Positions 1,032 through 25,407 of a stretch of DNA of 25,407 bases are shown piece after piece. The DNA is from a virus: positions 1 to 25,407 of the IMG/VR virus record IMGVR_UViG_3300031772_000256. One strand, written 5' to 3'. Position numbers and translations under genes: made by a program. Numbering within the stretch: the first letter of the stretch is position 1; each line of letters opens with the position of its first letter. A model generated the notes under the pieces. The model was not told the DNA's origin and did not search any database. It saw only the letters and a program-made list of their open reading frames with translations.

Positions 1032-1487
1032 CTAATCTTTAGAAGTACGATAACCTAAAACTCTCGATAGTGGAAATGTATGAATCGACACAGTGTTGCC
1101 TTGATTCCCACCCAGAAGTTTGATTGTATGATTTTCCTCGCATATTTCAACAACCATAGCAACGTGACCCATTCCGTTACCTCTAGACAGGACGGCAATG
1201 TCTCCCTTTTTCCCATTAGAAGGATTCCCCCAGTGCATCCAACTCCGAGCCATTCCTGACCGAGTCCCTTTACATCCTGCGTCCTGAATCTTTTTGTTCA
1301 TGTAACAAGAACACCAAGGGATCTCACTATCATCGATGTCCTTAAGATGATCCCCACTTATGCCGAGATCATCTACGCACTCATAGCAATCAAGTATTAA
1401 AGGATTAGAGTGGGAGCCGGAGATTTCGTCCCAATCAAGTTTCAGATCCTCATTTGCGGCATGAAATGCCTTTTCGATTAACCTCAT
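1032..1487 (-). CDS. endolysin, NlpC/P60-CHAP-like cysteine peptidase (TIGR02594 type)
   Basis: This predicted peptidoglycan hydrolase has 151 residues. The core matches the pattern of the TIGR02594 family of small phage peptidases: IPWCSCYMN with candidate catalytic Cys59, then ARSWMHWG, GDIAVLSRG, GMGHVA with candidate His108, and LGGNQGN with candidate polar residue Asn128, ending in RVLGYR. Such enzymes cut peptide bonds in the cell wall. No signal peptide or membrane segment is seen, so it would need help to cross the inner membrane. The start is placed at the second of two in-frame ATGs (1487) because AGGAG lies eight bases upstream, against two bases for the ATG at 1493. This also gives an ATGA overlap with the stop of the lipoprotein gene. 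The context (spanin-like genes just before) supports host lysis. A virion-borne hydrolase is the main alternative. Confidence 0.85.
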   Translation of the reverse strand: MRLIEKAFHAANEDLKLDWDEISGSHSNPLILDCYECVDDLGISGDHLKDIDDSEIPWCSCYMNKKIQDAGCKGTRSGMARSWMHWGNPSNGKKGDIAVLSRGNGMGHVAMVVEICEENHTIKLLGGNQGNTVSIHTFPLSRVLGYRTSKD

Positions 1488-1783
1488 TTGCATTGCTCCT
1501 TATAGTAAGCGCGAATCAATTCATAGTCCGATGGCGACATTGTTACGAACTTTTTCATTTGATTCACTGGGATTTTTTTCTCTGAGCTATTTCTTACATT
1601 CACGCAAAACGAATAACTGTTATCTATCGGAGAGGCTTGAATGAATGTGCATAAGTATGCGTCAGGCTTTGGAGCCTGGGCCTTGCATGAGGTTAAACTA
1701 AAGATGCTTAGCAAGATCGCGAGCCGCTTGCTCTTGCTCAACGTCGGTAGTCGAATCTTTAAGTTTACTGATAGCGTCTGCAT
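1484..1783 (-). CDS. phage lipoprotein, candidate outer-membrane spanin (Rz1-like)
   Basis: This 99-residue protein has a basic N-terminus, a hydrophobic stretch LAILLSIFSLT and a lipobox ending LTSC, so it should be lipidated at the Cys and anchored in the outer membrane. The mature part is about 66 residues with further cysteines and a C-terminal pattern KFVTMSPSDYELI...C that I have seen in small phage lipoproteins. The ATG at 1783 is preceded by GAGGGAGGAG seven bases away, the strongest ribosome site nearby; a TTG at 1810 has none. The start lies inside the preceding gene in another frame, overlapping it by 86 bases, which is the classic Rz/Rz1 arrangement. Its stop overlaps the endolysin start as ATGA. 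Lipoprotein status is well supported. The spanin role is inferred from context and overlap. It is not as proline-rich as Rz1 of lambda. Confidence 0.7.
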   Translation of the reverse strand: MQTLSVNLKIRLPTLSKSKRLAILLSIFSLTSCKAQAPKPDAYLCTFIQASPIDNSYSFCVNVRNSSEKKIPVNQMKKFVTMSPSDYELIRAYYKEQCK

Positions 1784-2459: not shown

Positions 2460-3038
2460 TTATTTTCCCCATTTTTGCATGAAAGTATCAATAATTGAAA
2501 TAACTTCCAATATCTCTGGCCCAGAATAGAAGGATCGTCCTAAACCCTGGATTAAAGTCTTGGCCGTTTTCAAGGACCCAGTTCTAAGAAGTCGCTCAAT
2601 GTTTGCATAAGTTTGGTTTGACAGAAAAGCCGCAAACTGATCTTCGGTTAGATTCTTTTGGTCGTTCATGTAATGAATCAGAATCAAAATTTCTGCGCCC
2701 AAATCTATTGACTCGCTCGCAAACTTTAGCCCAGCTCTCTTTTCATATTCTGCCGCCACATCGATCTGGTGAATCACATAATCGGCTGGCAATAAATATC
2801 TAGTGATCGACTGGCCTGTGTCTGGATCAGTCGTCACCTCTGTTTGAATTGCTCCGGTGATGTCAATGAATTCAAATCCTGGATCATTAGATGACACCCA
2901 TCTAGGGTTTTGCCCAAAAGCTTTGCTCTCCACAGAATTCTGAATCATCAAATCAGCTTGCTCTTGAGTCTCGAAATCAGCTCGATTGGTGATAACATTC
3001 TGCCCGTTAATTACTCTAGTTACTTCTATTCTGATCAT
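2460..3038 (-). CDS. fibre-associated protein of unknown function
   Basis: This 192-residue protein has a beta-rich N-terminal half (MIRIEVTRVINGQNV...) and a helical C-terminal half (LTEDQFAAFLSNQTY, IERLLRTGSLKTAKTLI). It directly follows the large fibre gene: the fibre stop and this start share one base (TAATG), so the two are probably translationally coupled. Genes in this position are often fibre assembly chaperones or a small tail-tip component. I do not recognise a family, so this role is only a guess from position. No signal peptide, membrane helix or cysteine cluster is visible. Confidence 0.7.
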   Translation of the reverse strand: MIRIEVTRVINGQNVITNRADFETQEQADLMIQNSVESKAFGQNPRWVSSNDPGFEFIDITGAIQTEVTTDPDTGQSITRYLLPADYVIHQIDVAAEYEKRAGLKFASESIDLGAEILILIHYMNDQKNLTEDQFAAFLSNQTYANIERLLRTGSLKTAKTLIQGLGRSFYSGPEILEVISIIDTFMQKWGK

Positions 3039-4945
3039 TAGTTTCCTACTCTCGCAATATGAATATGATTTCCATCTTGTTGCGCTTCAAGAGATCTAGT
3101 CGCGCCGTTCGTTTGGAATAAATAAGCCTGAATTGTTTCCCCTGCAAGCATCGGAATAATTACAGATCCACCTGGATGAATTGACGTCGCACCCGTGAAT
3201 ATGAACATTCTGTAAACCTTATATCCTGTAGAAGTGTTATTGTTCTTCGTTAAGTAAAGCAATGCCTCACCCGTTCCGCCCGTCAATCCAATCAAAGCAA
3301 CAAAAGCCGCAACGTGATACTTTCCTGCTATTGGTGCCGTGAATTTCCAACTTGCTCCGGTTGTTACCGCATTATGCGAGTCAAATATCTTTGTCGAAAA
3401 GTCGATTACGGTAAATGCTGCGCTGGTGAAAGAATTTCCTGCATTGGTGTAGTAACTTGCATTCACACTTTCACTCGCTGCTATTTGTGATGGACCGCTT
3501 ATTCTGTCAAAAGTTACAAAGGTATTATTATTTAAAGACCTTGACGCTCCTGCGTTTTGAAAAACCCTAACCTCAATAACATCACCAGCAACTAAATCTA
3601 AGACGTCCGATCCTCTTAGCGAAACAAAATCCGTCAATGAAGCAGGAAGAGTGTATCTGTCAATAATAGAAAATTGAGATCCATTTTTGAACACATATTC
3701 TTCTAGAATTACTCCCGTCGCAAACAAAGCAAAATCGAATCTGACGAATGTAGACAGCTTGTATTTCCCAGGGATAGCGACAGTGTATTGACCTGTCGTT
3801 GTGTTATAAGATCCATGCGAATCGAATGTCTTAGTTGGGTTTACAATAGTTGTAGTGATAGAGGAAGCGACGCTTGTGGTAGATCCAGAGGCCCTTGAGG
3901 ATACAACCCTTGTGTCTGCATCACTACTCATTATTTGCGAAGATGACCAACCCACGATTGGAACCTTGAAAGTTAAGGTAGCAGAATCACCAGCACCCCA
4001 CGTTTGAGGTATTCCATTACCCCAAGCGTTGCCTGCACCAGCTCCTAAAACTGCTACGCGAGTTGTATCGAAATAGGCTACGGCAGCGTCATAGAACCCA
4101 ACGCCCGAATCTAAAGATTGACCAATTCCGAAAGCACCATAGGAGCCAAGGAACTTGCTTGTATCTATAACCATTCCGCTCGGTATGCTCCAAGCAAATT
4201 GTCCGGTGCCTCCCGCTGGTAGAGCTGAAAATGTTGTAAAGATGTGAATTTCAGCCGAGTCTCCGACTCTTCGCCACTTACCTGTCGTTGACGTGTTTGT
4301 CCAAGCGACCGAATTCGTAGTACCCGTGAGCGTGGGAATGTAGCTAGTCCAATCGGTAATTGGGGAGCCATAAGTCTTTGGTAGTCTACCTAAGAAAAAG
4401 TTATCAAAAACAACTTGAAAATCAAGTGTGCTGGTTGTCCCGTAATATATTAAAATCCGAAAGCTCGTGACATCAATCGGCAGTTGAAACTCTCCGACCA
4501 TTTCCTCAAAGAATCCTGATCCAGTGTTTTTGATTTGATAGGGAGCAAGTTGAACAATTGTTGTCCCTGAAACATTCGTGCAAACTGCCCAAATCTGCAA
4601 ATCCCCATCGGCATAAGATCCCGAGAATATGCCATAGGAAAAACCAAAACGTAGGACCTTGCCTTTGTCCATCGGTGCAATGTTAGTTACTTGATAGCTA
4701 ACTCCCTCCCCTTGTCGGTTCACAGATCCGTTCTTAAACAGTCGGAATCGACCACCAACATTGTCTAAAACATTAGTTGAGACATCTCCGGAAATTGCTA
4801 CCGCAGGAGCTCCACCTATTCCGCTCGATGGGGTTGGACTTGCTGCATCTTTAAATGAGGTCCATCTACCTACAAAATCGCCAAACATGGTCGATTGACT
4901 TATGTAATTGTAAGGCAAATTATTATTCGTTGGGACAAAAGTCAT
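3038..4945 (-). CDS. receptor-binding tail fibre with carbohydrate-binding-like and two C1q-like domains
   Basis: This 635-residue protein is likely the host-recognition protein. Residues about 20-190 form a jelly-roll-like domain resembling carbohydrate-binding modules (WTSFKDA...VVFDNFFLG). Residues 198-333 match a domain repeated in many phage fibres (YIPTLTGTT...KWRRVGDSAEI). The C-terminal half is a tandem pair of C1q/TNF-like jelly rolls, about 345-482 and 493-635. The pair is marked by TKTFDSH and TKIFDSH 147 residues apart, by PGKYKLSTFV against AGKYHVAAFV, and by LVAGDVIEVRVFQ against MLAGETIQAYLFQ. Domains of this kind usually form trimers at a fibre tip. AGGAG lies five bases before the start. 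The gene follows another fibre gene, so one of the two probably forms the shaft and this one the tip. Confidence 0.85.
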   Translation of the reverse strand: MTFVPTNNNLPYNYISQSTMFGDFVGRWTSFKDAASPTPSSGIGGAPAVAISGDVSTNVLDNVGGRFRLFKNGSVNRQGEGVSYQVTNIAPMDKGKVLRFGFSYGIFSGSYADGDLQIWAVCTNVSGTTIVQLAPYQIKNTGSGFFEEMVGEFQLPIDVTSFRILIYYGTTSTLDFQVVFDNFFLGRLPKTYGSPITDWTSYIPTLTGTTNSVAWTNTSTTGKWRRVGDSAEIHIFTTFSALPAGGTGQFAWSIPSGMVIDTSKFLGSYGAFGIGQSLDSGVGFYDAAVAYFDTTRVAVLGAGAGNAWGNGIPQTWGAGDSATLTFKVPIVGWSSSQIMSSDADTRVVSSRASGSTTSVASSITTTIVNPTKTFDSHGSYNTTTGQYTVAIPGKYKLSTFVRFDFALFATGVILEEYVFKNGSQFSIIDRYTLPASLTDFVSLRGSDVLDLVAGDVIEVRVFQNAGASRSLNNNTFVTFDRISGPSQIAASESVNASYYTNAGNSFTSAAFTVIDFSTKIFDSHNAVTTGASWKFTAPIAGKYHVAAFVALIGLTGGTGEALLYLTKNNNTSTGYKVYRMFIFTGATSIHPGGSVIIPMLAGETIQAYLFQTNGATRSLEAQQDGNHIHIARVGN

Positions 4946-19710: not shown

Positions 19711-21036
19711 TCATCTACGCGATACGACTTTAAGAACTCCAACATCTTGAATCTTGGTGCCTGGTAAGAATTTAAACACAGGATACCCAACGCTGTCCGA
19801 AGCGTGGGTTAATTCTCTTTTCTTTCCTGGATCCAAAGTGGCATCTGCACCATCTTTCCACAGGACTCGCTCGAAATCTTTCTTTAGTTTTGGGCACTTC
19901 TCTGGGTGTAAGAAAAAGGAAACTGTGCCATCGGCAGCCTTCAGTCTTGTGTTCATGGTGTTGACTCTATCTTTGACTGTCGGATTACTCTCGGGAGTTT
20001 CATTGTTTACATGGAATTTATGTTCTTTAAGTATAGCCTCAATTATGTCATAGTCCGAATTGGAAGCTGCGGCTCTTTGTCTTGCTTTTCCGGTGGCATC
20101 TCCGCAAAGAATTATCAAACCCTTCCAATTCATGTCTTTCAGTCTTGAGACCAATTCCAAGCTAGCCTCTTGCGTGTTTGAATTCTCCAGGTGAATCTCG
20201 TCGAACCAATAGCACTTCTCTTTTGAGAACTGCCCAAAATGCCAGCTCATAGGCGTGATGTTAAAATCAAGACCAATAACAAGAGGTAAATAAGGGCTAA
20301 ATAAATCAGCGTTTCCGGTGAAAGGACTAACCAGCAACTCGTTATGTGTACCGTAATTGCAGTAAGCACGTCCCGATTGAATATCTCTGAAGTTCGCATT
20401 GATTTCCTGATCGAACTCACCATCTGACATATCTTTTTTTGAAGACTCATACTCTTCCTGAGTAAACAATGGATTGCAAGTGCTAGGAGCTTGAAAAGAT
20501 TCCCAATCCTCGTCGGTAGATCCTTTTTCAAAAAAGTCATAGAATTGATCATAACCCTTTGGCGTGGAAATGAAAACCGCCCATCCTTGAGTTGTCGTAA
20601 GCATATTCCTAATTACCTGTGTCCACAGGTCTTGGTGCTGATCTCGCACCTCATCGATAATTACGCCATCAAGTGTCGCACCTCGAAGTCTGTGCAGAGT
20701 TTCCCCTGACTTGAATGTAACCTTCGATCCATTGATAAATGTAATTGTTAAACGAGATTCATTAGGTTTTTTTATTGCTCCTGAGTCGCGGAGCATTTCA
20801 ACCAGTCTCTCAAATTGAAGTCTGGCCTGATCGAATATTGGCGATAAGAACCAATAATGACCCCTGGGATTTTCCCAGGCTTTGGCAGCTAGTTCATTAA
20901 TACCAAATGTTGATTTCCCACTTTGTCGGCCAAATGCCCCAACTCTAAACCTGGCTTTAGATTCGTGAAGCTTTCTTTGCATCTCGTGAGGCGTGTAAAG
21001 CTCCAGTGTTATTTCATGTTTTTTTCTCTTTGCCAT
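19711..21036 (-). CDS. terL: terminase large subunit
   Basis: This 441-residue protein is the DNA-packaging ATPase and nuclease. The Walker A motif is GRQSGKST at about residues 36-43, Walker B is VIIDE at about 125-129, and the coupling motif is STPKG at about 157-161. The nuclease half shows GLDFNITPMSWHFGQ, IILCGDATGKARQRA and HASDSVGYPVFKF, whose acidic residues probably bind metal. The start is the ATG at 21036, which shares one base with the small terminase stop (TAATG); AAGGTGGGG lies just upstream. A GTG at 21054 would add six residues. The gene follows the small terminase as usual. Packaging type (cos or headful) cannot be told from what I see. Confidence 0.95.
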   Translation of the reverse strand: MAKRKKHEITLELYTPHEMQRKLHESKARFRVGAFGRQSGKSTFGINELAAKAWENPRGHYWFLSPIFDQARLQFERLVEMLRDSGAIKKPNESRLTITFINGSKVTFKSGETLHRLRGATLDGVIIDEVRDQHQDLWTQVIRNMLTTTQGWAVFISTPKGYDQFYDFFEKGSTDEDWESFQAPSTCNPLFTQEEYESSKKDMSDGEFDQEINANFRDIQSGRAYCNYGTHNELLVSPFTGNADLFSPYLPLVIGLDFNITPMSWHFGQFSKEKCYWFDEIHLENSNTQEASLELVSRLKDMNWKGLIILCGDATGKARQRAAASNSDYDIIEAILKEHKFHVNNETPESNPTVKDRVNTMNTRLKAADGTVSFFLHPEKCPKLKKDFERVLWKDGADATLDPGKKRELTHASDSVGYPVFKFLPGTKIQDVGVLKVVSRR

Positions 21037-21410
21037 TATTTGGCAGAGCCCCACCTTGCTTTGTAGACTTTATCTTTTTTAGTGTCTGTTTGTTCTCCGG
21101 TCTCTGATCCATCCCTGTAACCAAAGCGACACTTCATTGTAAATATCCAAACAGATTGGGCGAAGTTAGGTATTTTGCCAACCATTCCATTTACTCCGAG
21201 AGTTTCCCAGAAGTAGCGAGATTTAATGTCACCGATTGATTTGGCCTCGGCAAATTCAGAATGCTTGTCAATCCATTGGTACAAACAAATTCTATTGCAG
21301 TTTGCTACGGCACCGAAGGCTTCAAATGAGTAACCCTTGCTCATGTGCTCGATTAGCTTTTGCGGCAAGGTCTCGTTCCATTTCTCTTGTCCCTTTTTTG
21401 GTCTAGCCAA
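21036..21410 (-). CDS. terS: terminase small subunit
   Basis: This 124-residue protein would recognise phage DNA for packaging and load the large subunit. The N-terminus has a basic start (MARPKKGQEKW) and a helix-turn-helix-like segment (SFEAFGAVANCNRICLYQWIDKHSEFAEAKSIGDI). This is close to small terminases of the sort with a resolvase-like DNA-binding domain. The remainder includes IPNFAQSVWIFTMKCRFGY and an acidic/basic tail. The start is TTG with AGGAG nine bases upstream. The gene overlaps the end of the upstream peptidase gene by eight bases and joins the large subunit by a one-base overlap. The assignment is firm from position and the helix-turn-helix pattern. Confidence 0.85.
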   Translation of the reverse strand: MARPKKGQEKWNETLPQKLIEHMSKGYSFEAFGAVANCNRICLYQWIDKHSEFAEAKSIGDIKSRYFWETLGVNGMVGKIPNFAQSVWIFTMKCRFGYRDGSETGEQTDTKKDKVYKARWGSAK

Positions 21411-21906
21411 TTCGCTTTACTCCTATGGTCCTAACTTTTTCCCTTAAATCTTTTAAGGAAATGAAGTCCTGCAATTCGTCAAAAGATACATCGTAGCTGC
21501 TTTCCAAAAACTCTGCAACCAATTCCGAACAGATCAAGGTTTGCGAGCCATTCACATCTGTTTTGAAGAAGGTTTTGAAATGCCCCCAATAATTTGAAAT
21601 TGAAATTAACAACAATTGAAAGACCGAGTACGGCTTGCCCACCAAAGGTTTAATGAATACTTGCACCGCAGATGGAGTTAATTCCGGCATCTCATAGGCT
21701 TCAACGATGGTGTAATGATTGAGCCATTCTTCATAGGCAATATCTCTAGATATAGGAATAATACTTTCAACGACTCTTGTCATCCTGTCGTCTGAGTAAA
21801 GCAAAGCCGCGTGCTGAAAGGGAACCTTGTCGAGTATCTCTATCGAGCCGCCGAAGAATCTTTTAATACCTGACTTGCTTGTGCAGAATAAAACTAAGAT
21901 TCTCAT
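21403..21906 (-). CDS. permuted NlpC/P60 (YiiX-like) cysteine peptidase or amidase
   Basis: This 167-residue protein shows the order of the permuted papain-like fold: His32 in FQHAALLYSDD, Glu48 in RVVESIIP, and Cys126 in TLICSELVAEFLE. The region GKPYSVFQLLL lies between them, as in YiiX/YebB-like proteins. Members cleave or transfer acyl/amide bonds; the substrate of this one is unknown. It has no signal peptide. AAGGG lies before the ATG, and the stop overlaps the small terminase start. A peptidase between fibre-like genes and the terminase is not the usual place for an endolysin, so it may act in the virion, in entry, or on the host envelope. A separate endolysin exists at 1032-1487. Confidence 0.75.
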   Translation of the reverse strand: MRILVLFCTSKSGIKRFFGGSIEILDKVPFQHAALLYSDDRMTRVVESIIPISRDIAYEEWLNHYTIVEAYEMPELTPSAVQVFIKPLVGKPYSVFQLLLISISNYWGHFKTFFKTDVNGSQTLICSELVAEFLESSYDVSFDELQDFISLKDLREKVRTIGVKRIG

Positions 21907-21918
21907 TTTAGTTATCCC

Positions 21919-22596
21919 TTAAAGTTTTTTAGTTAATGTATAGTTGACCGCAACACTCCTAGCAGAGCCAGAATTGACGGCATGATATTTCACCGACAGA
22001 TAAAGATTAATGGGGATCTTTGCGTTGAGTGGATATGTGTCTATCTTGTGAACAGAAATAGATCCATTGGCAACTTCAACGAAAGCTTTATCTATGTACC
22101 TGGATACCGTTGGCCAGTTCTCGCAAATGCTTGGTCTAGCGATAGAGGGAATGATTCCATCCGGATCTTCGACACTCGCCTCGATCCAATCCCCGAACTC
22201 CGCTCCGGATACTATCAATGCACCACCAGAAACATATCTTTCTTCAGTCATTTTAAATGAGATATCAGTTGCGGTATTTATGGCGCAAGATACTGGGGAC
22301 GCTAAGGCATCCCTCTTCGTTCTAAAGGTTGGTTGTGCAAATGGTTGTTGCTCTGGTTGTATCTTAACCTCCACAGGAACATTTGTGTTCTGAGGCAATG
22401 GCAAACCAGAGTGATTAGTTACGAGTGTTGACAGGGTTGTTTGTTCTTCAGTAGACAAGTCAGACTTGAAAGAGATCTGTAGATCTGAGCCAAATAGAGT
22501 AATGTAATCTATAGCTATGGTAATGCTACTATTCTGAATCTCTTGCGTAAGCCTGTCGATTGATACAGGTGTTTTGGTGAATGAATAAGTTGTCAT
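21919..22596 (-). CDS. virion or fibre structural protein, unknown family
   Basis: This 225-residue protein has an N-terminal region (ITIAIDYITLFGSDLQISF, LSTEEQTTLSTLVTNHSGLP) resembling a small domain that recurs in phage structural proteins, where helix LS..E...L..L...H follows a strand pair. The middle and C-terminus are beta-rich, ending AVNYTLTKKL. GGAG lies five bases before the ATG. It directly follows the fibre-like 265-residue gene and probably forms part of the same structure. No enzyme motif or membrane segment is visible. The exact role, head fibre or neck appendage, cannot be told. Confidence 0.65.
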   Translation of the reverse strand: MTTYSFTKTPVSIDRLTQEIQNSSITIAIDYITLFGSDLQISFKSDLSTEEQTTLSTLVTNHSGLPLPQNTNVPVEVKIQPEQQPFAQPTFRTKRDALASPVSCAINTATDISFKMTEERYVSGGALIVSGAEFGDWIEASVEDPDGIIPSIARPSICENWPTVSRYIDKAFVEVANGSISVHKIDTYPLNAKIPINLYLSVKYHAVNSGSARSVAVNYTLTKKL

Positions 22597-23394
22597 CTAT
22601 ACTCCAAGTCTAATTAAAAGTAAGCTTCGACCATTGGCCGTAAATGTCCCTTGATTTGTTGAAATTCTTAAGTCGATCGTTTTTAATCCATCAACTTGAA
22701 AGATCGTCTGTGTCAATAGCTGAAATGTCATGTTGGAAGATCCCGATTGAAATGTTCTTTTTGAATCCGCTATTGCCGTTCCATTGTAATAAATAGTTGC
22801 GTTATTGAGTGAATTATTCTGATTATTAATATTGGTCGAACTGTACCAAATTGCATAAGTGCCAGCTTGGGGAATTAAAGCCATTCCAGTTATTAAAACA
22901 TCCGTCGCCGATCCTGTTGCAAAAGCCGTTGTTGAGATTACGTTGTAATTAACAATACCAGTCGCAACACTTAAAACAGTTTGGAAATATTCCCAAGTTC
23001 CCGCTGCAGATCCATTCAATCTTAAATAGGCCCAACCGATTGACCCTTGAGAAAGCACGAACAGATTCGCATTAGATCCATCTTTGATTTGAACTGATTG
23101 CGTAGATTTATTTAATAATGTGAAAACAATTGTTAATGGCAAGCTTGTCGCGTCTGGCAACACAACAGAGTAGCCAGTGGCGGTCCCTGTTAGTATTTGA
23201 AACGTCTTATCAGTCGTCGTGAGCGTTAATGTTCCATTGAGTGTCGTGGCTTGGGTTCTTGAATTGTAAACTGTTTGTTCTCTGGTTTCATTCAAAGCCG
23301 ATTGAACTTCCGTTGATTGAAAGCTCGTGGCTATCGTTTTATCGAATGGCGTTTCGATTGCTTGTTGTGTTCTACCGTAGGCGAATAAAGACAT
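22597..23394 (-). CDS. fibre-like structural protein with C1q-like C-terminal domain
   Basis: This protein has 265 residues. Residues 15-40 (TPFDKTIATSFQSTEVQSAL) match a short conserved motif of phage fibres in which PFD...F....VQ.AL/I links modules. Residues 55-138 form a beta module ending AGTWEYF, related to the C-terminal modules of the large fibre at 4954-6753. Residues 145-265 resemble a C1q/TNF-like jelly roll: LIPQAGTYAIWYSS, FQVDGLKTIDLRIS, RSLLLIRLGV. AAGGAG lies nine bases before the ATG. A receptor- or envelope-binding fibre is likely. Its location upstream of the terminase suggests a head or neck fibre rather than a tail-tip fibre, but that is inference. Confidence 0.75.
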   Translation of the reverse strand: MSLFAYGRTQQAIETPFDKTIATSFQSTEVQSALNETREQTVYNSRTQATTLNGTLTLTTTDKTFQILTGTATGYSVVLPDATSLPLTIVFTLLNKSTQSVQIKDGSNANLFVLSQGSIGWAYLRLNGSAAGTWEYFQTVLSVATGIVNYNVISTTAFATGSATDVLITGMALIPQAGTYAIWYSSTNINNQNNSLNNATIYYNGTAIADSKRTFQSGSSNMTFQLLTQTIFQVDGLKTIDLRISTNQGTFTANGRSLLLIRLGV

Positions 23395-23715
23395 TTAAGT
23401 TGGCTCCTTATTCAGGATGATCTCATAGTTCACAGAGGCCACATTACCTTTGATTCTTATTTGCGTGGGACTACCTTTCAGAGACCATCCGATAAACTCA
23501 CCAGGAGCTAGCGTTCCGAACGTCGTGCCGCCATCAAAAGAGTAAAGAAGTCTATTGCTGTTCGGAGTTTGAGAAGGGCATCTGATTAAACACTCCGCGA
23601 TTGATGTGGTTGCAACCGTAGGGAAAGCGGTCGAGGTAGTCCCGACCGTCCCTGTGAATTGTGTTGTCTGACCGAGAAGGTCTTCAGTTTCGAATTGAGG
23701 AGCCAAATCAGTCAT
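23395..23715 (-). CDS. small beta-rich virion protein, unknown
   Basis: This 106-residue, mostly beta protein is rich in Thr, Ser and Gly. Segments such as CLIRCPSQTPNSNRLLYSFDG, GEFIGWSLKG and IRIKGNVASVNYEIIL resemble a small jelly-roll or Ig-like domain. AAAGG stands five bases before the ATG, and the stop is followed directly by the next start. Its neighbours are all fibre-like, so a virion role is likely. I recognise no family. Confidence 0.6.
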   Translation of the reverse strand: MTDLAPQFETEDLLGQTTQFTGTVGTTSTAFPTVATTSIAECLIRCPSQTPNSNRLLYSFDGGTTFGTLAPGEFIGWSLKGSPTQIRIKGNVASVNYEIILNKEPT

Positions 23716-23727
23716 AACAACCTTTCA

Positions 23728-24279
23728 TTAAGCGAGTTCTAGGATATCAACGGTCGCGCGCAAAGCGGAAACCTTAGATGCTCCATCTAAGTTGTTTGCT
23801 TTAACAAGCAACTGTTGAGTTCCAGTCGCACCAGCGGTGAACATTACATCATTCATGAATGCGTGAAATGAGTATTGTCCAGCGTCAACGATAGCATCTG
23901 CCAAGACAGTTTCAGCGCCAGCGTCATTCCAAATTATTTGAAACAAAGCAGCACGTCGGCAAGAAACGATAAAGTTTAAATCAGCGTAAACTTTAGTCGC
24001 TGTGAGCGCCAAAGTCGCAACCGTCACAACGGTTGCAGATCCCGCAGCATCTTCACCGCGAACGTGTTTCTTAACTCCAGGTGCAGACAATGAAACCGGA
24101 ACTTGGCCAGCTCCAGTCAATTGAGGCAAGATCACATTGCCAGAACTGTCTTTGAAAGCAAAACCGATAGAACCATTTATGCCAGAAGAAGCATTACCTT
24201 CAACTCGCTTTGCCAAATTCGCACCCGAATTGGTCGTCAGATCCTCTAATGTACCAAAAATCTCTCTTGTATCAGCCAT
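23728..24279 (-). CDS. virion structural protein, unknown family
   Basis: This 183-residue protein begins MADTREIFGTLEDLTTN. The body is Ala/Val/Gly-rich with alternating strands (ATVVTVATLALTATKVYADLN, FIVSCRRAALFQIIWND, QQLLVKANNLDG). It has no membrane or enzyme motif. AGGGAGG stands six bases before the ATG, one of the strongest ribosome sites here, so the protein may be made in large amount. It is likely a decoration or fibre-base protein of the virion, placed in a cluster of similar genes. A link to known head or neck proteins could not be made from sequence alone. Confidence 0.65.
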   Translation of the reverse strand: MADTREIFGTLEDLTTNSGANLAKRVEGNASSGINGSIGFAFKDSSGNVILPQLTGAGQVPVSLSAPGVKKHVRGEDAAGSATVVTVATLALTATKVYADLNFIVSCRRAALFQIIWNDAGAETVLADAIVDAGQYSFHAFMNDVMFTAGATGTQQLLVKANNLDGASKVSALRATVDILELA

Positions 24280-24301
24280 CTAAAACCTCCCTATTTTAAA
24301 T

Positions 24302-24724
24302 TTAAGCGTAGCAAATCAATTCTATATCCTGACTAGCCTTATCGCAACTAAGATAGATCATACCTAGACTACCGACGAATGACTCATAGAAATCACTCCC
24401 TGGCGGTAGAGTATAGTAATTGGTTACTGTTTCGCCTAACACATAGGCCAGTTTCATTCTGGTGAGCTTTCTAGATTTTAATCTGAATTGAGCCGTCCCC
24501 GTTGGTAAGGTTATCGGAAACTCTGTGTTCGGTGTTGCTGGGCTTGTAATGTTTAATACGCTCGGATTTAACTGAACCGGAACAGTGGCGACTGGTATTG
24601 GCTCGGAGTTCTTGTTCTTGATCTTTACATGGAGCGCCCTGCGCTGATCGATATCCTCGCTATTACCAAGCGGAATACCTCTGTCCATAATAAGTGATGA
24701 ATTTGTAGGTGTCTCTAAAGCCAT
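24302..24724 (-). CDS. phage structural protein, unknown
   Basis: This 140-residue protein has an N-terminal region that is polar (SLIMDRGIPLGNSEDIDQ), followed by HVKIKN, a Pro-rich segment (VATVPVQLNPSVLNITSP) and a beta-rich C-terminus (TAQFRLKSRKLTRMKLAYVL, DFYESFVGSLGMIYLSCD). The pattern suggests a small adhesin-like or decoration protein. The start has no good ribosome site, so coupling with the upstream gene, 24 bases away, is possible. No family is recognised. Confidence 0.6.
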   Translation of the reverse strand: MALETPTNSSLIMDRGIPLGNSEDIDQRRALHVKIKNKNSEPIPVATVPVQLNPSVLNITSPATPNTEFPITLPTGTAQFRLKSRKLTRMKLAYVLGETVTNYYTLPPGSDFYESFVGSLGMIYLSCDKASQDIELICYA

Positions 24725-24748
24725 TGATTTGCATTGTGGCGCAATCTG

Positions 24749-25063
24749 CTAATGCAGGCAATCGCTTTTCGGATTCCTTGGCGCTCCCATGATTTCTTTC
24801 TCAGAGATCCAAATAATAAAAGCCGCTATACTGGCCTGATATTCTGTTTTAAATTCGCCGCATTGAATCAAATGCTCGGCAATGGACTTAATATCGTCCC
24901 ACTCGGTTGTCGTCAGCTTGTCTAGTGAGAACTCTCCGAATGATGTTTCGATTCCATACTGGTTAGACATAGACTTAGTTTGCTTTATCTTGTGGCCACC
25001 CGCAAGAATGACTACTCTCAAGAAGCGTTTGATCCGGACTTTAGTCGCAGGTAATTGGTCCAT
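24749..25063 (-). CDS. unknown small protein, start uncertain
   Basis: This is a 104-residue protein if the ATG at 25063 is used. The alternative is a TTG at 25084. Neither has a clear ribosome site, and both lie inside the end of the upstream gene, so the gene is probably coupled to it. The protein is mixed alpha/beta with a basic start (TKVRIKRFLRVVILAGGHKI) and an acidic middle (FGEFSLDKLTTTEWDDIKSI). Its place suggests a small tail or head accessory protein. I recognise nothing. Confidence 0.5.
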   Translation of the reverse strand: MDQLPATKVRIKRFLRVVILAGGHKIKQTKSMSNQYGIETSFGEFSLDKLTTTEWDDIKSIAEHLIQCGEFKTEYQASIAAFIIWISEKEIMGAPRNPKSDCLH

Positions 25064-25407
25064 AGGGAAGAGTTTGATCGACAAGAGGACTTAAGGCAAA
25101 CTCTGTATTGTTATTTGCATTCAAAGCAAACATAACCTCGGTCGTAACTCCTCCGAGGAATTTCTTAGACGTTGGTCCAACCTCGTGCCCGAAGCTCGTT
25201 ACCACGGATCTTCCATTTGCCTGCACAAGATATCTTGTTCCAGGAGTTGGCATTGCTCCACTTGCATAATAAATATTGCCCTGCCACATTTCCTGATCAA
25301 GTGTTGGCTTGTTCTTTTCTCTAGCAGTAGCACCGACGTTGCCACCGCCCTCCGCTGGCGTCCATACTTTTTGATATGTTTGTTTGAATACTTTCGAGCA
25401 ATCAATC
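25041..25407 (-). CDS. C-terminal part of an unidentified phage protein, 5' end outside window
   Basis: The frame is open from the right edge of the window down to a stop at 25041 (122 residues visible). The visible part starts IDCSKVFKQTYQ and has KVWTPAEGGGNVGATARE, EMWQGNIYYASG, GTRYLVQANGRSVVTSFGHE and a beta-rich end. An internal ATG at 25289 is not needed, because the frame is continuous through it. The gene is the first of the fibre-like cluster and may be a structural or enzymatic virion component. I cannot name it from the tail alone. Confidence 0.6.
   Translation of the reverse strand, partial: IDCSKVFKQTYQKVWTPAEGGGNVGATAREKNKPTLDQEMWQGNIYYASGAMPTPGTRYLVQANGRSVVTSFGHEVGPTSKKFLGGVTTEVMFALNANNNTEFALSPLVDQTLPYGPITCD

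Follow-up and report, generated by a model that had tools for sequence, protein, structure and literature searches.

What does a YiiX-like enzyme do immediately upstream of the terminase genes of a phage? The question is raised by a small gene of a virus (IMG/VR record IMGVR_UViG_3300031772_000256), which a first-pass annotation had described as a YiiX-like permuted cysteine peptidase. The gene was studied in the window, that is the whole stretch of 25,407 bases that was analysed, which is likely a fragment of a virus genome. Such YiiX-like enzymes are already known from many phages, with 107 Streptomyces phage records alone. The family is thus widespread in phages, yet it is misnamed, and the literature searched reports no assay or function for any phage member.

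Organization of the locus

The features of the locus are listed in Table 1. The enzyme gene is separated from the preceding gene by 12 nt and, as first described, overlaps terS, the overlap being 8 nt. A GGAG motif (21423-21420) stands nine bases ahead of the TTG start of terS. The 12-nt gap, the AAGGGA motif ahead of the enzyme gene and the overlap with its GGAG motif indicate that the enzyme gene belongs integrally to the late operon. Its base composition resembles that of its neighbours. Downstream, a weak TerS match is followed by a clear TerL.

The preceding genes had been called fibre-like. This holds as a reading of their sequences by eye; the profile searches gave no informative family match for any of them, and none backs a fibre identity. 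The unrelated endolysin noted elsewhere is confirmed as a CHAP protein, encoded at the other end of the window, 20 kb from the enzyme gene. No holin or endolysin gene neighbours the enzyme gene in this window, whereas such a neighbour is found in some relatives. Queries with TerL, MCP and fibre proteins found no close kin of this phage. In three records of distant TerL relatives, no YiiX-like gene is annotated beside the terminase.

Table 1 Coordinates of the enzyme gene, its key codons and the genes discussed in the text
Feature	Position in window	Strand	Evidence
YiiX-like (C92-like, PHROG 1128) permuted papain-fold enzyme gene	21403..21906	-	ORF, ATG start, 167 aa
Shine-Dalgarno-like AAGGGA of enzyme gene	21915..21920	-	sequence
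His32 codon, predicted catalytic	21811..21813	-	100/100 aligned relatives
Glu47 codon, third polar residue of triad	21766..21768	-	hand alignment and His spacing
Tyr93 codon (GKPY), predicted as the superfamily's fourth catalytic residue	21628..21630	-	100/100 aligned relatives; role from PMC3142127
Tyr93-Cys126 insert, hydrophobic helix 95-106	21532..21627	-	site of YiiX S1-pocket helices; helix in model
Cys126 codon (ICSELVAE), predicted nucleophile	21529..21531	-	100/100 aligned relatives (count biased by fetch patterns)
terS	21036..21410	-	TTG start; PHROG 3064 E 6.8e-5, weak match
terL	19711..21054	-	Pfam Terminase_6N E 1.9e-17; 33% identity to SSU5-like phage TerL
Preceding genes (225, 265, 106, 183, 140, 111 aa)	21919..25084	-	fibre-like by eye only
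CHAP endolysin or tail lysozyme, unrelated	1032..1493	-	TIGR02594 E 7.9e-24; Pfam CHAP 2.9e-8; PHROG 1259 1e-22

Predicted fold and family

An AlphaFold2 model of the enzyme was built on 55 natural sequences (pLDDT 85.5, pTM 0.83). It supersedes an earlier model from a 16-sequence alignment, which was poor (pLDDT 60). The predicted model has the permuted papain fold, with a match that spans the whole chain. The best solved match in Foldseek was B. cereus 3kw0 (probability 1.00, E 5.6e-3). VIA-align gave a Z score of 12.7 over 136 residues with E. coli YiiX and of 11.6 with 3kw0. Structure prediction and a fold search, proposed at first pass as a check, therefore returned the expected permuted fold. 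Lower matches were TseH (Z 8.8), PPPDE1 (6.3), the MARTX RID domain and PLAAT3/HRASLS3 (5.9), which are all described permuted relatives (PMC12994826, PMC3142127). Among viral models, the best matches were uncultured phage proteins, and the list includes the Ibantik ‘peptidase’ and several proteins annotated as C92.

The profile of PHROG 1128 matches residues 11-154 of the enzyme with an E value of 1.3e-6. No Pfam model (C92 included) or NCBIfam model matches the enzyme itself, yet 29 of the 55 members of its alignment match Pfam C92. The link between the enzyme and the C92 profile is therefore only transitive. When 15 relatives were used to build a profile that excluded the enzyme, the enzyme was recovered at E 8e-6, as compared to 0.073 for the best-scoring of 2000 shuffles. 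The family profile also detects 3kw0 (5.6e-6) and YiiX (0.0028). The permuted fold and the YaeF/YiiX-like, C92-like family assignment of the enzyme are almost certain. The view of a YiiX-like permuted cysteine enzyme is thus supported by the predicted fold, by the profile matches and by the residue conservation described below.

The enzyme adds a remote, divergent member to a phage family that is already known but functionally uncharacterised. A close relative was found in none of the collections searched. A tblastn search of 50,697 phage records gave no direct relative, and viral and genome contigs scanned with the single sequence gave none either; the IMG/VR relatives were recovered with an alignment as query. 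A PADLOC scan gave no defence-family match for the enzyme. PHROG 1128 bears the label ‘enoyl-CoA hydratase’, which we rejected: relatives match C92 and none matches a crotonase. Since the PHROG 1128 members carry permuted papain fold motifs and related viral proteins match C92, the label is a misnomer.

E. coli YiiX (PDB 2if6) and B. cereus 3kw0 (BcPPNE), YaeF/YiiX-like proteins of Pfam PF05708 (Peptidase_C92), share the permuted fold with the phage enzyme over nearly its full length. They also share its His-Glu-Tyr-Cys order, but their identity to the phage enzyme, which has no Pfam score of its own, is about 15%. The proteins of PHROG 1128 (SuMu_51, the Streptomyces phage ‘peptidase’, the freshwater IMG/VR clade) have a similar length and the motifs H, GxPY, ICS and a C-terminal L. 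In contrast, their full-length identity to the phage enzyme is only ~15-29%, and their TPGDL motif is degenerate in it (SLKDL). The T6SS effectors TseH and Tox-Act1 have a permuted NlpC/P60 fold, as the phage enzyme does. However, they are secreted toxins that belong to separate clades in the published tree, and Tox-Act1 is paired with an immunity protein, whereas neither an immunity gene nor a marker of secretion was seen for the phage enzyme. LnsA, from the S. aureus lipoprotein N-acyl transferase system, is a YiiX-like permuted enzyme according to published HHpred results (PMC7387801). LnsA carries a signal peptide and depends on LnsB; for the phage enzyme, neither was seen.

Active site

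The order of residues along the chain is His32, Glu47, Tyr93 and Cys126, corresponding to the His, polar residue, Tyr, Cys order of C92-like proteins. The canonical NlpC/P60 endopeptidases have the Cys before the His, whereas His32 lies ahead of Cys126 here. His32 and Cys126 are as originally proposed. The acid had been placed at Glu48; it is instead Glu47, residue 48 being a serine, and the catalytic Tyr93 was absent from the original list. Ser127 is, like His32, Tyr93 and Cys126, conserved in 100/100 aligned relatives. Relatives that had lost Cys126 would have weakened the assignment. None was seen among the 100 aligned, a count that is biased because the fetch patterns for many relatives included that Cys; the His and the Tyr were not in the patterns.

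Glu47 was located by setting its VVES sequence by hand on the IVEA/VVEA motif of relatives, while MAFFT puts it two columns off. The His-Glu spacing is 15, equal to that of His49-Glu64 in B. cereus 3kw0 (numbers from PMC3142127). Some relatives have a Ser or a Gln at the Glu47 position. This fits the published suggestion that LRAT may not need its third polar residue (PMC3142127).

Tyr93 and Cys126 are 33 residues apart, as compared to 13 for the corresponding residues of YiiX, and the insert of the phage enzyme is longer and hydrophobic. It is 32 residues long (family median 31) and its first 19 residues have a mean Kyte-Doolittle value of 0.55 (family median 0.34).

Genomic settings of relatives

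Relatives were found in three recurrent settings: in lysis cassettes, upstream of terS-terL, and behind the tail-fibre genes of Mu-like phages. In a freshwater clade, an endolysin gene is next to the enzyme gene in 22 of 23 usable loci, which are related to one another so that the count is not one of independent cases; an HNH-like gene intervenes in the remaining locus. A tail gene and then two small genes, holin-like or for membrane proteins, precede the enzyme gene, and the endolysin gene comes after it. The endolysin is of the Amidase_2 type in most of these loci and of the CHAP type in others, the types beyond L010 being read from sequence. The YiiX-like gene is retained in the freshwater cassettes L012-L035 while the endolysin swaps between Amidase_2 and CHAP. 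In L051, an endolysin gene is directly upstream of the YiiX-like gene, and in L069 rIIA-rIIB take that place, which also suggests a lysis link. Counted per lineage rather than per locus, lysis adjacency is found in few lineages only, which argues against a link to lysis.

In another set, terS-terL lie 0.5-1.4 kb downstream of the enzyme gene in 18 of 80 loci, again related and not independent, and an HNH gene is often close by. Ibantik and L057, where the gene precedes a TerL-like ORF, share this packaging-type setting, to which the window also belongs. In SuMu, Mcat7 and the Salmonella STM4198 prophage, the relative is directly behind tail-fibre or tail genes. Streptomyces phage relatives sit among tRNA genes. 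A tally of neighbours by PHROG over diverse loci showed mixed contexts and no universal partner. In L053 (774-6185), the order is TerL, portal, YiiX-like enzyme and then an ORF resembling a head maturation protease.

Possible role of the enzyme

We propose, with a probability of about 0.5, that the protein is a late cytoplasmic thiol enzyme that would hydrolyse or transfer acyl chains of a host membrane lipid or lipoprotein around lysis. The predicted fold and the residues point to a thioester-forming thiol enzyme. Cys126 would attack the carbonyl, His32 activating it and Glu47 orienting, and a thioester acyl-enzyme would form. Tyr93 would be located on the oxyanion or P1 side. The enzyme, a single-domain protein with no predicted signal peptide, would be made in the cytoplasm from the late operon, with its translation coupled to terS. 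Late action is suggested by the position in the operon.

The most likely substrate would be a fatty-acyl ester or amide, in a phospholipid or a lipoprotein, at the host membrane. We infer an acyl rather than a peptide substrate from YiiX, Tox-Act1 and LnsA, together with the hydrophobic helix of the Tyr-Cys insert. YiiX carries a fatty acid in its hydrophobic S1 pocket (PMC3142127). Tox-Act1 is a phospholipase that acts on PG and PE and loses its activity when its His or its Cys is mutated (PMC12994826). LnsA is required for lipoprotein N-acylation (PMC7387801). Not all enzymes of the wider permuted fold act on acyl substrates, however: the solved match 2wp7 is titled a deSUMOylase. Acyl hydrolysis or transfer late in infection might then weaken or alter the envelope around lysis. 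Envelope action at that stage is a guess drawn from the lysis-cassette setting of relatives. In this window, the distance to the endolysin and the neighbours, terS and fibre-like genes, speak against the proposed role, as does the placement of Streptomyces phage relatives among tRNA genes. Among the functions suggested at first pass, the one that best suits the family is modification of a host lipid or lipoprotein, whereas processing of a virion protein finds little support.

A distinct if minor possibility is that the enzyme has an accessory role in host takeover or superinfection exclusion. Its target would then be a signalling or membrane protein of the host, modified at an early or a late stage; lysis would not need the enzyme, and its gene would simply occupy a cargo position ahead of the packaging genes. 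PHROG does place PHROG 1128 under moron/host takeover. The position upstream of terS-terL, often with an HNH gene, recurs in the loci counted above as well as in Ibantik and L057, the position of the gene differs widely among phages, and related plasmid enzymes adjoin a bSEFIR/TIR protein. Yet the 12-nt gap and the 8-nt overlap leave no room for a promoter and a terminator of its own, and a base composition like that of the neighbours counts against cargo.

The place of the enzyme gene behind genes that look fibre-like by eye, and that of the SuMu, Mcat7 and STM4198 relatives right behind tail-fibre or tail genes, would fit an enzyme carried in the virion with the fibre or tail, opening peptidoglycan or outer-membrane lipid at entry. 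This seems improbable for a stand-alone protein of 167 residues that has no binding or tail domain. Moreover, relatives are often distant from tail genes, and the narrow hydrophobic S1 site of permuted enzymes is considered unfit for peptides (PMC3142127). A protease processing the capsid or another virion protein might be expected beside packaging genes, and the L053 relative does lie between the portal gene and the ORF resembling a head maturation protease. Nevertheless, most relatives show no link between the gene and the head module, and the solved enzymes related to it bind lipids or use them as substrates. A role in virion maturation is therefore unlikely, and we give it only a very slim chance.

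Returning to acyl hydrolysis or transfer at the host membrane, a broader idea can be formulated, although it is rather doubtful. The C92-like enzymes of phages might form a further late lysis or envelope class beside holin, endolysin and spanin, targeting membrane acyl lipids or lipoproteins. They would be wired into the lysis cassette in some phages and, in others including this one, into the beginning of the packaging operon. With the family tied to the permuted lipid-handling papain branch and, in one clade, to lysis cassettes, a direct test becomes feasible. The question raised is whether phages enzymatically attack host acyl lipids or lipoproteins at lysis.

Additional observations

In the window, positions 3038-4945 encode a fibre-like protein with a weak C1q-type domain, whose only phage relative in the collection comes from Manatee Spring. 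On a 139-kb viral contig (L069:1183-4492), the order rIIA, rIIB, YiiX-like enzyme was observed. Two E. coli IncF plasmid loci (L125:2583-4779 and L127:3141-5329) carry a gene for a 395-aa YiiX/YebB-like hydrolase and, after it, one for a TIR-domain protein. The latter has a PADLOC bSEFIR match (1.2e-66), and the yacAB toxin-antitoxin pair adjoins. The hydrolase and the TIR-domain protein possibly form a two-gene defence unit.
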